Shown: positions 15,659 to 22,148 of the stretch, in pieces
Position numbering within the stretch: position 1 is the first letter of the stretch
Layout: every line of letters begins with the position of its first letter
NCBI GenBank assembly: GCA_017984135.1
Contig: JAGNZZ010000028.1
Coordinates: forward strand, 1 to 32,864
Direction of reading: 5' to 3'
Source: Chitinophagales bacterium
Lineage (GTDB): Bacteria; Bacteroidota; Bacteroidia; Chitinophagales; JADIYW01
Length of the DNA: 32,864 nucleotides
Translations under genes and position numbers: made by a program
Notes under the pieces: model-generated
What the model was told of the DNA's origin: nothing
Seen by the model: the letters and a program-made list of their open reading frames with translations, nothing else
Database searches by the model: none

Positions 15659-16360
15659 ATGGTCATTAATGGAGATTCTTGTTTAACATGTAAAATACGA
15701 GACTGCTCGATATTAAAACCATGCAGTACTACTACTTTAACGGCTATCAGTAATTTTAAATCAAAAAATAAATACGGGAAAGGCCAATCTGTATTTGCAG
15801 TGGGTGATGAAATGAAAGGTGTCTATTTTATTAAATCAGGAATAATTAAAGTAGAAATGCATACACCAAATGGAAAATCATTTATTGTAAAATTAGTGTC
15901 AAGTGGTGATATCGTAGGATATAGAGAATGCAATAATACGAGTATTAAGAATTACAGCGCAACAGCAGTTTCTGAAGTGTCAACTTGTTTTATACCTATT
16001 GATGCCTTTAAAAAAATACTATACGATTCGCCCGATTTAGACAAACAAATCAAAAATGAGTTTGTCCGTGATTTAGAATTAATGGAACAAAAATCGTTAA
16101 GTTTAGCTTTTAAACCAATTAAAGCACGCGTAGCCGAAATTATTTTACAAATAGCAGATGTTTATTGTTATAATGCCAGACGAAAAAGCTTTGTTTTAGA
16201 TTTATCTAGACAAGACGTTGCCGATTTAATAGGCACCACTAAAGAACAAGTGTCAGCCATCTTAAAAGAATTTTCTCGAAATTCATTTATTCGTTATTCC
16301 GGAAAAAAAATCTATTTTATAGATACTGAAGCCATATCCACCATATCTATAAATTATTAA
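15659..16360 (+). CDS. FNR-type Crp/Fnr transcriptional regulator with Fe-S ligands
   Basis: A 233-residue regulator with a cyclic-nucleotide-binding-like barrel, a long dimer helix (about 125-155) and a C-terminal winged helix. Cysteines at 8, 11, 16 and 22 match the E. coli FNR cluster region: CSILKPC (16-22) aligns with FNR CSISQLC (23-29), and Cys110 in STCFIPIDAF aligns with FNR Cys122. The ligands for an oxygen-labile [4Fe-4S] cluster are therefore present. In the recognition helix (TTKEQVSAILKEF) FNR Glu209 and Ser212 correspond to Glu196 and Ser199, but FNR Arg213 is Ala200, so the DNA target probably differs from TTGAT-N4-ATCAA. It sits directly upstream of a respiratory operon on the same strand, which it likely controls. 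Confidence 0.88.
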   Translation: MVINGDSCLTCKIRDCSILKPCSTTTLTAISNFKSKNKYGKGQSVFAVGDEMKGVYFIKSGIIKVEMHTPNGKSFIVKLVSSGDIVGYRECNNTSIKNYSATAVSEVSTCFIPIDAFKKILYDSPDLDKQIKNEFVRDLELMEQKSLSLAFKPIKARVAEIILQIADVYCYNARRKSFVLDLSRQDVADLIGTTKEQVSAILKEFSRNSFIRYSGKKIYFIDTEAISTISINY

Positions 16361-16718: not shown

Positions 16719-17639
16719 ATGAGTTTACTTAGTCCTCAAGAAGGTTGGTATAATAAGAAAGTATCCAAAGATGAAAAAATGTGGATGATAATTGCATTAA
16801 TACTTTGTATTATGCTGTTTGTATGGATGGTTCTATGGCACGTATATGGTAAACAAAATCCTTCGAGTCTTACCTATAAAACCAGCACTACTGAATTTGC
16901 CCAATTGACAGAAGCGTATATCAAAAAAAATATGATAGGCGTAGATAAAGGCATTCCTGTGGTTCGACCTGAACCCAACAGCCATGTGTTTGTAATGGCT
17001 GAAATGTGGCGTTGGAGTCCTGTATTGGTCTTGGAAGTCAATCAAGCTTATAAATTTCATATTTCATCAAAAGATGTGGTACATGGATTTTCTATCCAGC
17101 CAGTAAATATGAACTTTCAGGTTTATCCAACGTACGATTATGTGCTCGAATTTAAACCAACGGAAGTAGGTGAATACAAAGTAATATGCAATGAGTTTTG
17201 TGGTATTGGTCATGCCGGAATGATAGGCAAAATCGTTGTGATTGAAAAGGAGGCTGATTTAAGAAAGTATGGATACGAAAAGTTTAAAAAAGCACCTGTT
17301 GCTTTAAGTACGGAAGAAATGGCTAAACTCAGCGATGTAGAAAAAGTAAATTTGGGCGAACAAGTTTACACCTTAAAAGGTTGTGGTTCATGCCATACCA
17401 CAGATGGCTCCAAATTAATAGGTCCAACATGGAAAGGTTTATATGGAAAAAAAGAAAATGTAAATGAAGATGGAAACATTAAAGCAGTACTCGTAGATGA
17501 CACTTACATCAAAGAATCTATCCATGAACCAGCAAAAAAGAAAACCGTTGGCTTTGAAAAAACATTAATGCCTAAAGTGGCAATGACGGATGATGAACTT
17601 CAGTATTTGACGGCATATATTAAATCATTAAAAGACTAA
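16719..17639 (+). CDS. Heme-copper enzyme subunit II: CuA domain fused to cytochrome c
   Basis: A 306-residue electron-entry subunit. One N-terminal membrane helix (about 22-43), a feature of B-family (ba3-type) enzymes, anchors a periplasmic cupredoxin. All CuA ligands are present: His122, Cys157, Glu159 (carbonyl), Cys161, His165 and Met168. A C-terminal class I cytochrome c follows, with heme attachment CGSCH (222-226) and a probable axial Met284 in LMPK. Electrons would pass from an external donor or quinol-linked protein to heme c, then CuA, then subunit I. The gene is 17 bases before subunit I. The CuA plus cytochrome c layout matches caa3-type subunits, while the single helix and the partner match the B family. 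Confidence 0.92.
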   Translation: MSLLSPQEGWYNKKVSKDEKMWMIIALILCIMLFVWMVLWHVYGKQNPSSLTYKTSTTEFAQLTEAYIKKNMIGVDKGIPVVRPEPNSHVFVMAEMWRWSPVLVLEVNQAYKFHISSKDVVHGFSIQPVNMNFQVYPTYDYVLEFKPTEVGEYKVICNEFCGIGHAGMIGKIVVIEKEADLRKYGYEKFKKAPVALSTEEMAKLSDVEKVNLGEQVYTLKGCGSCHTTDGSKLIGPTWKGLYGKKENVNEDGNIKAVLVDDTYIKESIHEPAKKKTVGFEKTLMPKVAMTDDELQYLTAYIKSLKD

Positions 17640-17656
17640 CCTAAAATCAATCAATT

Positions 17657-19393
17657 ATGTCTACTATAAATCAAGGAAATGACAGTTTGCAAAACCCATC
17701 TCCGCAAAATACTAGTTTGTTTATGAATTTTAGAACTTGTGATATAACAGGTTTTAAGGTCGATTTAACCGCAGAAAAATTAATTAGAGTCAATGCCGTA
17801 GCGGCTGTTGTATCTTTACTATTAGCAGTTGTTGCAGCCATTTTATTGGTGTTTACACGCTATCAGCCTGTTCACCTCTTAGGAGCAGAATGGTATTATC
17901 GATTGGTTACTTTTCACGGATTAAATGCACTTATTTTTTGGATTATTTTCTTTGAAGTAGCAGGCTTATATTTTGGTTCCACCGTAATTCTTAATACACG
18001 ATTTTGCTCTCCAAAATCTGGTTGGGTAGCTTTTGGGTTAATGGTATTAGGTTTGTTAATGTCTAACTACATTATCCTAATTGGAAAAGCCGATGTGATG
18101 TTGACATCCTACACACCATTAAAAGCACATCCTTTGTACTATTTAGGCATCATCTTGTTTGCCGTTGGTGCCTTAATTGCCGTTGCTCTATTCTTTGGAA
18201 ATTTAATGATAGCTCGTCAAGAAAATGTATATGGCGATTCCTTACCACTCGTAGTTTATGGATTAATGACAGCTGCAATTATTGCGGTTATCACTCTAGC
18301 AACTGGAGCATTAATTTATATTCCAACATTTTTATGGTCATTAGGTTTAATTGAAAATATTGATCCGGCAATGTATAAATTAATTTGGTGGGGATTAGGA
18401 CATTCTTCTCAACAAATAAACGTGGCAGCCATGGTGTCTATTTGGTATATGGTTTCTTTTCTATCTGTTGGAGGAACATCCATAAATGAAAAAGTATCTA
18501 GAACAGCATTCGTATTGTATATTTTATTTATTTGCTTAGCATCTGCGCATCATTTGTTAACGGATCCAGGTGTTAGCAGTGCTTGGAAAGTTTGGAACAC
18601 CAGTTATGCCATGTATTTAGCCGTATTGGCTTCTATGATTCACGCTTTTGCGGTGCCATCCTCTTTTGAATCTGCTCAACGTAGATGGGGTTATAATAAA
18701 GGATTATTTGAGTGGTTGTCAAAAGCACCTTGGGGAAATCCAGCTTTTTCATCCATTATCTTAGCAATCATCGGTTTTGGTTTTATAGGTGGAACAACAG
18801 GTGTAATTTTTGGTATGGAACAAACCAATATTATTGTACATAATACCATTGCCATTCCTGGGCATTTTAAAGGAACCGTTGTTATTGGTACTACATTAAC
18901 TTTTATGGGAATTACATATTATTTAATTCCATTAATTTTTAGACGAAAAATTGTAGGCATGAGTTGGGCGAAAATTCAACCATGGTTATTTTTCTTCGGT
19001 ATCGCATTTTTGTCTATTTCTATGATTGTATTAGGTCAATTAGGTGTACCACGGCGACATTGGGATTCTACATTTTCCGGAGGTCCATTCACCCACAACT
19101 TTAATCCTGCAGTTGATTTCTTTTGGACACTCATGATGTTAGGTGGAACTGTTGCGTTTATCTCTGTCATCATTTGGATTTTAATTGTAGTTATATCGGT
19201 TTTCTTTGGTCCAAAAGTAACAGGTCCAAAAGATATGCAATTAACTATTTCACCACTAGCTCCACCAGCCAAAGAACACAAAGGAATTGAAGCACCAGGA
19301 ACATTGGTTTTGACGATGATATTCTTATTGGTTTTCTTAGCCTTGTTTTTCTTGAATTGGAAATGGTTGGCTGCTACTTGGTACGTAAAATAA
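17657..19393 (+). CDS. B-family heme-copper subunit I lacking the active-site tyrosine; putative NO reductase
   Basis: A 578-residue membrane protein with about 13 helices, closest by eye to ba3 oxidase (HHLLTDPGVSSAWK matches ba3 HHQFADPGIDPTWK; HNT-IAIPGHF matches HNTAWVPGHF). Heme and copper ligands seen: His87 (low-spin heme), CuB His249, His298 and His299, and His403 (high-spin heme). Two key positions differ. The residue four after His249, the cross-linked Tyr in A- and B-family oxygen reductases, is Gln253 (HSSQQ). The second low-spin heme ligand (ba3 His386) is Lys405 (GHFK). Loss of the Tyr is a hallmark of NO reductases derived from B-family enzymes (eNOR, sNOR, gNOR and nNOR types, from memory), so NO reduction to N2O is likely. 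An atypical oxidase remains possible. Confidence 0.88.
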   Translation: MSTINQGNDSLQNPSPQNTSLFMNFRTCDITGFKVDLTAEKLIRVNAVAAVVSLLLAVVAAILLVFTRYQPVHLLGAEWYYRLVTFHGLNALIFWIIFFEVAGLYFGSTVILNTRFCSPKSGWVAFGLMVLGLLMSNYIILIGKADVMLTSYTPLKAHPLYYLGIILFAVGALIAVALFFGNLMIARQENVYGDSLPLVVYGLMTAAIIAVITLATGALIYIPTFLWSLGLIENIDPAMYKLIWWGLGHSSQQINVAAMVSIWYMVSFLSVGGTSINEKVSRTAFVLYILFICLASAHHLLTDPGVSSAWKVWNTSYAMYLAVLASMIHAFAVPSSFESAQRRWGYNKGLFEWLSKAPWGNPAFSSIILAIIGFGFIGGTTGVIFGMEQTNIIVHNTIAIPGHFKGTVVIGTTLTFMGITYYLIPLIFRRKIVGMSWAKIQPWLFFFGIAFLSISMIVLGQLGVPRRHWDSTFSGGPFTHNFNPAVDFFWTLMMLGGTVAFISVIIWILIVVISVFFGPKVTGPKDMQLTISPLAPPAKEHKGIEAPGTLVLTMIFLLVFLALFFLNWKWLAATWYVK

Positions 19394-19450: not shown

Positions 19451-20209
19451 ATGAAGATTAAAATTTATTTTCCACTTATTGCAGTATATTTTATACTGGT
19501 TGCATTCACACTTCCTGATGAAAATAAATTTTTAGGAAAAAAAATGACGGATGTTTTACTGACAGATTCCAATGGAGATTCCATTCGTTTGTTTAAATTG
19601 ATAAATGGCAAACCTTTAATTATTATTCCTATTTATACCAAATGTGCATCTATTTGTGGTGTGGTAAATAATGGCACTAAAACCGCCATTCGAAAATTAG
19701 GAACATTAGGCAAAGAATTTAATGCCATTAGTTTCTCTTTTGATAGTACGGACATACCTTTTGATTTACAAAGTTATCAGTATAGATGGGGAATAGATGG
19801 AGTAAATTGGAAAGCGGTATCTGCCAATCCGAAGAATATAAAATTACTAACACAAAATATTGGATTTGACTACGATGTAGATACGGTGATGAACCAATAC
19901 AATCATCCAGCATATTTAGTGGTGTTGACGCCAGAAGGAAGAATATCCAGATTTATTTATGGAGTAAATCCTTCTAAAAGAGATATTGAATTAGCGGTTT
20001 TGGCAGCTAAAGCAGAAAAAACCACACCAGGTTTATTCACTGGAATTTACTTGCGTTGCTTTGGATATGATCCAGTTTTAAAAACCTATAAAGTGGATTG
20101 GCGATTTATATTGTCCACTTCGGCAGGTATCTTAATTATTATGATTATGACCACTATCTTTTTAAAAACATTTATTTTACCAAACCCTAATTATGTCCAC
20201 CACGAATAA
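19451..20209 (+). CDS. SCO1/SenC-type copper metallochaperone
   Basis: A 252-residue protein with an N-terminal signal/anchor (1-20), a thioredoxin-fold domain carrying the copper site Cys65-x3-Cys69 (KCASIC) and His152 (YNHPAYLV), and a C-terminal membrane helix (about 222-243). SCO proteins deliver copper to the CuA site of subunit II, fitting the operon. SenC is also part of the NorSY-SenC cluster I recall from ammonia oxidisers. The 3' end overlaps the next gene by 17 bases in another frame, which indicates translational coupling. Confidence 0.9.
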   Translation: MKIKIYFPLIAVYFILVAFTLPDENKFLGKKMTDVLLTDSNGDSIRLFKLINGKPLIIIPIYTKCASICGVVNNGTKTAIRKLGTLGKEFNAISFSFDSTDIPFDLQSYQYRWGIDGVNWKAVSANPKNIKLLTQNIGFDYDVDTVMNQYNHPAYLVVLTPEGRISRFIYGVNPSKRDIELAVLAAKAEKTTPGLFTGIYLRCFGYDPVLKTYKVDWRFILSTSAGILIIMIMTTIFLKTFILPNPNYVHHE

Positions 20210-22148
20210 GATTATAACGACACCAATTGGGAAAGAAAAAAATAAAGGACACCAATGGTATCAACAGATGGCATCAAAGGTAGGAGCTGTTTTTTCTACA
20301 GAATTAAATCCGATGTATCATCTTGGTGGAATTTCGGTACTTCTTTTTTTAATTGCATGTATTTCTGGTTGCTATATTTTTATTTTTTACAATATCAATC
20401 CACGGCATGCTTGGGATTCAGTGGAAAAAATATCCGATAATTTTTTTAATGCATGGATGCGTAATATTCATCGTTATGCGTCTGATTTATTAGTGGTTTT
20501 TACTATTTTACATTTATTACATACACTCATTGCAGGCAAATTTAAACGACTACTTTCTTGGATAAGTGGTGTAATTTCTTTTTTAATTGTGATATCCATA
20601 GGCATCACTGGATTTATTTTAGTTTGGGATCAAAAAGCAAAATTAACTGGATACCTCACAGCAAAATTATTTTCAGGATTACCCATTTTTGATCCTTCAA
20701 TAATGGGTGCATTTTTATTGAATGATTTGTCGGTTGTTGGTGGTTTTTTTAAAGTTGCCTTGTTTGGTCATATCGCCCTTTCTTTAATTACAATTATTAT
20801 CATTTGGATTCATGTACTTAGAATTGCGCAACCAAAAATTTTTCCACCCAAAAAATTAATTACGTATTGTTTAATAGCTATCGGAATTATTTCCATTTTA
20901 TTTCCTGTAAAAAGTGATCCACCTGCACAATTAACGAATCTGCCAACAGAAACCACTTTTGATTGGTTCTATTATTTTGGATATTATTTAATGAAGATTT
21001 TTAATGTTTGGCAAAATTGGGCAATCATGATTGGTTCCGGAATAATACTTTGTGTTATTCCATATTTAGTTAAACGTAAAGACAAAGCACCAGTTCAGAT
21101 TGATTTGGATATTTGTAATGCCTGTAATTTATGCTCGTATGATTGTCCGTACGGAGCGATTGATATGTTGATACACCAAGGTGAACGCAAAGCTATTTTA
21201 TCACCTGATAAATGCGTGGGATGTACTATATGTATTGGTTCTTGCAATGAGCATGCAATTTCTCATCCGGAATATCCAACCTTAATTACCTTGACTGCAC
21301 CTAAGAAAAAAATGACTGTTTTTACGTGTGGTTATTTTCCGGAAACAATATTTCCAAGTGAGTTAGATGTGACGCAATATCGCGTGCCTTGCTTAGGTAG
21401 TGTTATGGCAAAAGATGTACAAAAGATGTTAGATAATAATGTAGAAAAAGTAGCCTTGTTGGGTTGTGAAGATTGTTATTATAGATACGGAAAAAACTGG
21501 GCAATTCAACGTTTATTGCACAAACGTGCGCCCATATTTTCTAAGCGATACGATGCATCGAAAATTAGATTGTTCACGTTGACTCAGTTTACGAATGAAA
21601 AATTATTGGCTTTTTCAAAAGAAACAGATATCGAAAGTAAAAAGGCATCATCGTTTGTAGATTTTCAGAAATCAAAACCTGTTCTAGCAATACTTATGCT
21701 CACTGCATTCTTTGCTATTTTTATTCCATTTACTAGCACGAAAGTCCGTTTTTTCAATCCAAACGAAAAGACGCTGGTGGTTAATTTTAAATATATTTCT
21801 TCGCCAATTGCATTTGAAAATCATTACTCAGAAATGAAACACATGCAAACTTTAAATCCCATTGTAAAAGAAAGAAGTCCAGTAAAGTTATCTGTTTACG
21901 ATGCTGTCACGAATCAATTAATTTTTGAAAAAATGTACACACCACGTGGACTTCGTCACGATATTGCCATGTTTATTTTTACTCAATTAGTTGTCGATGC
22001 AGATAACGTAAATATTGAAATAACGGAAACTGCCGTTAAGCATAAAAAATTAATTTTAAAAAATGTAAGCACTAAAAAAGGAGATGGCGTGTTTGTTGTT
22101 TTACACGATGGAAAATTAGTGGTAGCGGATAATGTTACACCGCAATAA
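20193..22148 (+). CDS. Cytochrome b / 2x[4Fe-4S] / MvhD-like fusion protein
   Basis: A 651-residue four-part protein. Residues 40-295 form a bc1/b6-like cytochrome b with about six helices; His93 and His107 in one helix and His193 and His207 in another (both 14 apart) can bind two b hemes. Next come two [4Fe-4S] sites: Cys308, 311, 314, 318 and Cys341, 344, 347, 351. Residues 374-445 resemble the MvhD/FlpD (hydrogenase/heterodisulfide reductase iron-sulfur) domain, with Cys379, Cys400, Cys425 and Cys428 in RVPCLGSV and LLGCEDCYYRYG. A further helix (495-512) and a 139-residue domain I do not recognise end the protein. It probably exchanges electrons between the menaquinone pool, cytoplasmic carriers and the terminal enzyme. 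It starts inside the SCO gene (17-base overlap). Confidence 0.85.
   Translation: MSTTNKIITTPIGKEKNKGHQWYQQMASKVGAVFSTELNPMYHLGGISVLLFLIACISGCYIFIFYNINPRHAWDSVEKISDNFFNAWMRNIHRYASDLLVVFTILHLLHTLIAGKFKRLLSWISGVISFLIVISIGITGFILVWDQKAKLTGYLTAKLFSGLPIFDPSIMGAFLLNDLSVVGGFFKVALFGHIALSLITIIIIWIHVLRIAQPKIFPPKKLITYCLIAIGIISILFPVKSDPPAQLTNLPTETTFDWFYYFGYYLMKIFNVWQNWAIMIGSGIILCVIPYLVKRKDKAPVQIDLDICNACNLCSYDCPYGAIDMLIHQGERKAILSPDKCVGCTICIGSCNEHAISHPEYPTLITLTAPKKKMTVFTCGYFPETIFPSELDVTQYRVPCLGSVMAKDVQKMLDNNVEKVALLGCEDCYYRYGKNWAIQRLLHKRAPIFSKRYDASKIRLFTLTQFTNEKLLAFSKETDIESKKASSFVDFQKSKPVLAILMLTAFFAIFIPFTSTKVRFFNPNEKTLVVNFKYISSPIAFENHYSEMKHMQTLNPIVKERSPVKLSVYDAVTNQLIFEKMYTPRGLRHDIAMFIFTQLVVDADNVNIEITETAVKHKKLILKNVSTKKGDGVFVVLHDGKLVVADNVTPQ

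Follow-up and report, generated by a model that had tools for sequence, protein, structure and literature searches.

Organisation of the operon

The window, a stretch of 32,864 nucleotides from a Chitinophagales bacterium (assembly GCA_017984135.1, contig JAGNZZ010000028.1), carries on its forward strand an operon in the order CRP/FNR regulator, CuA subunit with cytochrome c, haem-copper subunit I, Sco and a cytochrome b fusion. The CRP/FNR-family regulator (15659-16360; PF00027, 8e-16; PF13545, 1e-11) keeps its upstream position in most Bacteroidota relatives. A candidate FNR box upstream of the operon was rejected, as the best match in the window (7/10) was reached as often by shuffled sequence. 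The next gene (16719-17639; PF00116 and PF00034) encodes subunit II, a CuA cupredoxin with a fused cytochrome c, which aligns with the CuA site of ba3 subunit II, CNEFCGIGHAGM (E 2e-16), with CxxxCxxxHxxM at CuA.

Subunit I (17657-19393; PF00115, 2e-62) is a B-family haem-copper protein, in which HSSQQ is aligned with HPIVY of ba3 oxidase (4gp4), replacing Tyr237 (ba3 numbering) by Gln. The QQ pair was observed in every eNOR-type sequence compared, and Tyr was retained only in two ba3-type controls. Gln at the catalytic Tyr position of B-family subunit I is the criterion for this enzyme type (PMC8756737). By prediction, the enzyme neighbouring the fusion is an eNOR-type NO reductase, with which the NirK/NirS context is consistent. 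A sequence-only reading of the locus had proposed a putative NO reductase at this position; the link to a Tyr-less haem-copper enzyme stands, and the Gln at the Tyr position defines the enzyme more closely as eNOR-type.

A separate feature of subunit I in the window is the motif PGHFKGTV, in which Lys replaces the second His of GHFH, the low-spin haem ligand of haem-copper oxidases. The same Lys is present in Bacteroidota eNORs of this type, an Aquificaceae locus (L109) and a Thermus plasmid locus, and His is retained in Proteobacteria and others; the GHFK motif suggests a putative His/Lys ligation of the low-spin haem.

The fourth gene (19451-20209; PF02630, 4.5e-6) encodes a Sco-family copper/thiol assembly protein and runs at its 3' end 17 bases into the fusion gene. 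No electron donor protein is encoded in the operon, which also has no Rieske protein or cytochrome c1/f to go with the fusion beyond the cytochrome c of the reductase itself. No hydrogenase, formate dehydrogenase or HdrA partner was found in the window or the neighbourhoods examined.

Domain composition and predicted structure of the fusion

The last gene (20193-22148, forward strand), termed CYBFE here, is an uninterrupted open reading frame of 651 AA residues from ATG to stop, joining a cytochrome b, two [4Fe-4S] cluster motifs, an MvhD-like domain and a beta-sandwich. Pfam matches were obtained for cytochrome b (PF00033, 8e-17), Fer4 (PF00037/PF12838, about 2e-6) and FlpD (PF02662, 3.9e-6, 27.3 bits against a cut-off of 22.3), and cytochrome b6 ranks first by sequence when solved structures are searched. 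Decay or frameshift of the gene was ruled out, given that it is intact in nearly all relatives, with one broken copy. The single chain combining cytochrome b, two clusters and an MvhD-like domain, as first described from the letters of the window, was thus borne out.

The cytochrome b core covers residues 35-297 (20295-21083) and comprises helices A-F with haem ligands His93, His107, His193 and His207, numbered as in the sequence-only reading, invariant in 64/64 homologues and set at the bc1/b6f-type spacing of 13/13-14. PEWY, the Qo motif of bc1 cytochrome b, is absent; in a profile alignment with a cytochrome b that has PEWY (L022), its place is taken by D257-W258-F259-Y260 (20961-20972), and this x-D-W-F/Y-Y pattern is kept in nearly all of the 64 homologues (D257 and W258 in 63 each, Y260 in 58, with F in the other six). 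Two complete cluster motifs follow in residues 301-358 (21093-21266), with Cys 308, 311, 314, 318, 341, 344, 347 and 351. All eight are kept in 62/64 homologues, both exceptions being the domain-swapped paralogue described below.

The MvhD/FlpD-like domain spans residues 370-496 (21300-21680) and contains Cys379, 400, 425 and 428. All 38 homologous MvhD-like regions match PF02662 when taken alone, and a profile built from them retrieves MvhD chains of solved Mvh-Hdr complexes (8rvu_F, 5odc_D) with E values down to 2e-16 and aligned Cys positions, so that the region scores as MvhD rather than as something unrelated. The earlier description as a four-cysteine domain requires correction, since three of the four Cys are kept everywhere except in the domain-swapped paralogue (two loci) and Cys428 is found in only 56/64 homologues. 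The fusion is the only FlpD match in the whole genome, and no separate MvhD/FlpD protein was found there.

An AlphaFold2 model, built with 64 homologues, reached a pLDDT of 91.9 and a pTM of 0.90. VIA-align matched residues 24-297 to helices A-F of bc1 cytochrome b, with Z 21-24 for about 255 aligned positions, and a predicted transmembrane helix at about residues 496-515 (model helix 496-508; 21678-21737) occupies the position of helix G, many of the structural alignments running on to residue 519-520 of the fusion and 342-343 of cytochrome b. The predicted structure shows a bc1-type cytochrome b with the 2x[4Fe-4S] and MvhD unit inserted in the cytoplasmic F-G loop, followed by a periplasmic beta-sandwich. 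The cytoplasmic placement of the Fe-S unit, deduced from cytochrome b topology, is supported by a positive-inside charge pattern that agrees with it.

The C-terminal 139 residues had been described as matching nothing recognisable. This holds in that the C-terminal domain has no Pfam or NCBIfam family match and no clear PDB relative, its best PDB matches being generic beta-sandwiches (Foldseek E above 1e-3, Z below 8). The segment nevertheless consists of a membrane helix and a confidently folded beta-sandwich (21747-22145; pLDDT 94.4), predicted to be periplasmic and without a recognisable cofactor site. Assignment as a cupredoxin or other cofactor domain was rejected, as no metal ligand set is conserved in the homologue alignment. 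In many Proteobacteria the beta-sandwich is a gene of its own directly downstream of the fusion.

Co-occurrence with eNOR

In the order, the fusion was detected in 14 of 398 genomes, all 14 with eNOR subunit I; subunit I itself is present in 15, and the one genome without the fusion has its locus cut off by a contig end. Across the phylum (395 genomes) subunit I was found in 16 and the fusion in nine, the seven fusion-less genomes with subunit I forming a distinct group with 42-44% identical subunit I. Four loci of this second eNOR group display QQ and GHFH motifs. No cytochrome b fusion was found at the second-group eNOR loci examined, nor at the Thermus and Thermomicrobium plasmid loci (the plasmids being what was searched), indicating that eNOR as such does not need the fusion. 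The eNORs thus appear, from their gene content, to fall into two kinds, with and without the fusion.

A scan of 84,980 species genomes returned at least 578 relatives of the fusion. The best 80 of these come from Bacteroidota, Pseudomonadota, Nitrospirota, Nitrospinota, Verrucomicrobiota, Myxococcota and Aquificota, and 67 of the 80 have eNOR subunit I in the locus. Of the remaining 13, six were searched genome-wide, five of them carrying eNOR elsewhere; in each of the other seven, the contig breaks off a short way upstream of the fusion or its Sco/CyoE neighbours. The homologues therefore do not lie mainly away from such operons, as would have spoken against the association first proposed, and are instead found in eNOR operons or co-occurring with them. 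Recurrent neighbours include NirS, NirK, haem O synthase, hemerythrin and Rrf2-type regulators. Distance matrices of the operon proteins correlate (rho 0.73-0.84, 0/500 permutations), a result that shared organism phylogeny alone would give as well.

Several further features recur at these loci. A haem-copper-oxidase-like protein of 450-550 AA residues (PF00115 just above cut-off) lies beside eNOR operons (for instance L033:4218-5639) and is fused to Sco in one case (L060:9496-11520). A small hemerythrin gene, perhaps for a scavenger or carrier of NO or O2, adjoins or lies very near the fusion or the beta-sandwich gene in eight loci. In six loci, two cytochrome b fusions stand close together, and such paired proteins may form heterodimers.

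A domain-swapped paralogue

Two of the loci with paired fusions, from Polaromonas (L135) and Gallionella (L143) MAGs, have both copies in one eNOR operon, one of them of the Fe-S/MvhD type. The second copy (4672-6606 in L135), located between Sco and the gene for the C-terminal domain, joins cytochrome b to Fer2, FAD_binding_6 and NAD_binding_1, a module of plant-type [2Fe-2S], FAD and NAD, and keeps the D-W-F-Y motif. Its cytochrome b is 48% identical to that of the FlpD-type copy in Polaromonas. This paralogue was found in these two loci only, both betaproteobacterial MAGs, and the two copies agree at 73%, so a chimera of one assembly does not account for it. Among solved structures, the module is closest to the NADH-dependent reductases that serve P450, carbazole and benzoate oxygenases (benzoate dioxygenase) and to NqrF. 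Fer2-FAD-NAD reductases of these kinds pass electrons from NADH outwards, and the cytoplasmic unit is therefore best read as the point of electron entry, which makes electron flow from the cytoplasm to the membrane the likeliest mechanism. Together with the topology, the domain swap supports the part of the sequence-only reading that envisaged an electron route with a cytoplasmic donor.

Denitrification and quinol oxidation in the host

NirK is encoded in the genome of the window on contig C49 (63.7-71.8 kb), in the vicinity of genes for a NirV-like protein, Sco and three regulators of CRP/FNR type; downstream of this region is a run of masked N. No NosZ match above cut-off was found in the genome, the weak matches being subunit II and NirK, and no other cytochrome b or bc1 is present. 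A complete alternative complex III operon adjoins a caa3 oxidase, and the genome has two Rieske-domain matches, both on contigs other than that of the window. With NirK present, NosZ not found, no other cytochrome b and a complete alternative complex III, the host reads as a probable nitrite-to-N2O partial denitrifier, in which transfer from quinol to cytochrome c would already be covered independently of the fusion. The proposal that the fusion stands in for a bc1 complex is consequently not supported: bc1 is indeed absent, but alternative complex III is complete, and neither a Rieske nor a c-type centre is present in the fusion.

Proposed role of the fusion

Taken together, it is proposed, with a probability of about 0.5, that the fusion is the dedicated electron supplier of eNOR, a bc1-type cytochrome b with a cytoplasmic entry unit instead of a Rieske protein. 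A soluble cytoplasmic donor, probably ferredoxin-like for the MvhD form and NADH for the paralogue, would reduce the MvhD-like [2Fe-2S] or the [2Fe-2S] centre of the paralogue, respectively. In the MvhD form, electrons would then pass from this centre through the two [4Fe-4S] clusters to haem bH, which faces the cytoplasm, and on through the membrane to the periplasmic haem bL, from which they would leave either to the cytochrome c/CuA subunit of eNOR or to a quinone bound in the Qo-like pocket, which would then feed eNOR. The whole would amount to a transmembrane wire of NADPH-oxidase type on a cytochrome b scaffold. The first half of this scheme follows from the domain swap and the topology, and the last step, delivery to the eNOR side, was guided by the strict co-occurrence with eNOR. 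The conserved Qo-like motif counts against a plain wire and suggests quinone chemistry. The proposal is also weakened by the second eNOR group, which does without the fusion, by the lack of a donor gene in the operon and by the NADH-type paralogue having been found in two loci only.

That motif leads to a second, in our view unlikely, interpretation, which is nearest to the idea first put forward for this locus and comparable to NosGH/NapGH or NosR: menaquinol would be oxidised at the Qo-like site and its electrons passed to the CuA/cytochrome c subunit, the Fe-S/MvhD unit being a side branch or sensor of a quinol:eNOR oxidoreductase. The cytochrome b fold with helices E and F, the helix in the G position, D-W-F/Y-Y in place of PEWY and the c-type acceptor subunit in the operon all fit such an enzyme. 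However, the fusion lacks a Rieske or c-type centre, and alternative complex III already provides for quinol oxidation in this host; moreover, a quinol dehydrogenase would have no need of an NADH reductase, the form that the cytoplasmic unit can take.

The position of the fusion next to Sco, and at several loci also next to haem O synthase, together with its strict tie to eNOR, would equally suit an assembly factor akin to CcoG/CcdA, in which electrons carried across the membrane would maintain copper or thiols in reduced form for Sco and for CuA/CuB maturation of eNOR. We regard this as quite unlikely, given that two Beggiatoaceae loci have the fusion with the beta-sandwich gene and no Sco in the locus, with eNOR elsewhere, that other eNORs mature without the fusion, and that two b haems and three Fe-S centres exceed what known copper reductases use.

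Very unlikely is a bifurcation of quinol electrons by the Rieske-less cytochrome b, one going to NO at the very high potential of eNOR and the other via bL, bH and the Fe-S/MvhD or NAD module to ferredoxin/NAD+, which would let NO respiration drive reverse electron transport and so pay for low-potential electrons: bc1 cytochrome b itself bifurcates, MvhD is typical of flavin-based bifurcating complexes and several hosts among the best 80 belong to lithoautotroph groups (Gallionella, Mariprofundaceae, Aquificaceae and Beggiatoaceae), but nothing points to electrons moving into the cytoplasm, the direction is the opposite one in known Fer2-FAD-NAD reductases and many hosts fall in Bacteroidota groups usually regarded as heterotrophs.

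Implications

The eNORs are a widespread, recently recognised source of the greenhouse gas N2O. If the role as dedicated electron supplier is true, many N2O producers would link NO reduction directly to the redox pool of the cytoplasm through a third conserved component with cytoplasmic Fe-S/MvhD or NADH modules, which would change the predicted energy yield and regulation; judged from sequence and context, the fusion appears to deliver electrons of cytoplasmic origin to the N2O-making enzyme and is carried by bacteria of many phyla. It also offers a marker gene splitting eNORs into two kinds, and the pairing of the same cytochrome b with either an MvhD unit or an NADH reductase provides a natural experiment by which the direction of electron flow becomes testable.

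Comparison with known systems

In the passages compared here, published descriptions of eNOR name subunits I and II only (PMC8756737), plus Sco (PMC6431628), leave the cytochrome b fusion unmentioned and treat eNOR as an enzyme of two subunits that receives its electrons from cytochrome c. No such fusion was found in the literature by title and abstract, and the passages compared from the eNOR/ba3-a1 literature do not mention it as a third eNOR component; a PNAS 2024 article (doi 10.1073/pnas.2316422121) lies outside this comparison, and no priority is claimed.

With bc1/b6f cytochrome b (PF00033), the fusion shares the four haem His, helices A-F, the helix superposing on G and the position of the Qo motif. 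It differs in having Asp for Glu in that motif, no Rieske or c1/f partner in the operon, the Fe-S/MvhD unit between helices F and G and a periplasmic beta-sandwich. The MvhD/FlpD domain (PF02662) and its Cys positions are those of the Mvh-Hdr complex, whereas here the domain is fused to a membrane cytochrome b in an operon without hydrogenase or HdrA. The neighbouring enzyme has the diagnostic Gln in subunit I and the CuA site in subunit II of eNOR (ba3-a1, B-family NO reductase). By analogy, NADPH oxidase and ferric reductase likewise pass electrons from a donor domain in the cytoplasm across the membrane by way of two b haems, but the membrane fold of the fusion is that of bc1 cytochrome b, with no PF01794 match. 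NosR, NosGH, NapGH and CcoG are membrane proteins with a cytoplasmic 2x[4Fe-4S] unit that serve a periplasmic reductase or its assembly; this unit is shared with the fusion, whereas a bc1-type cytochrome b and an MvhD domain are, to our knowledge, absent from all of them. The cytochrome b, MvhD and eNOR families are each known, and what appears new, relative to the eNOR literature in the sections compared, is their combination, with the fusion as the third, near-obligate component of one large eNOR group.
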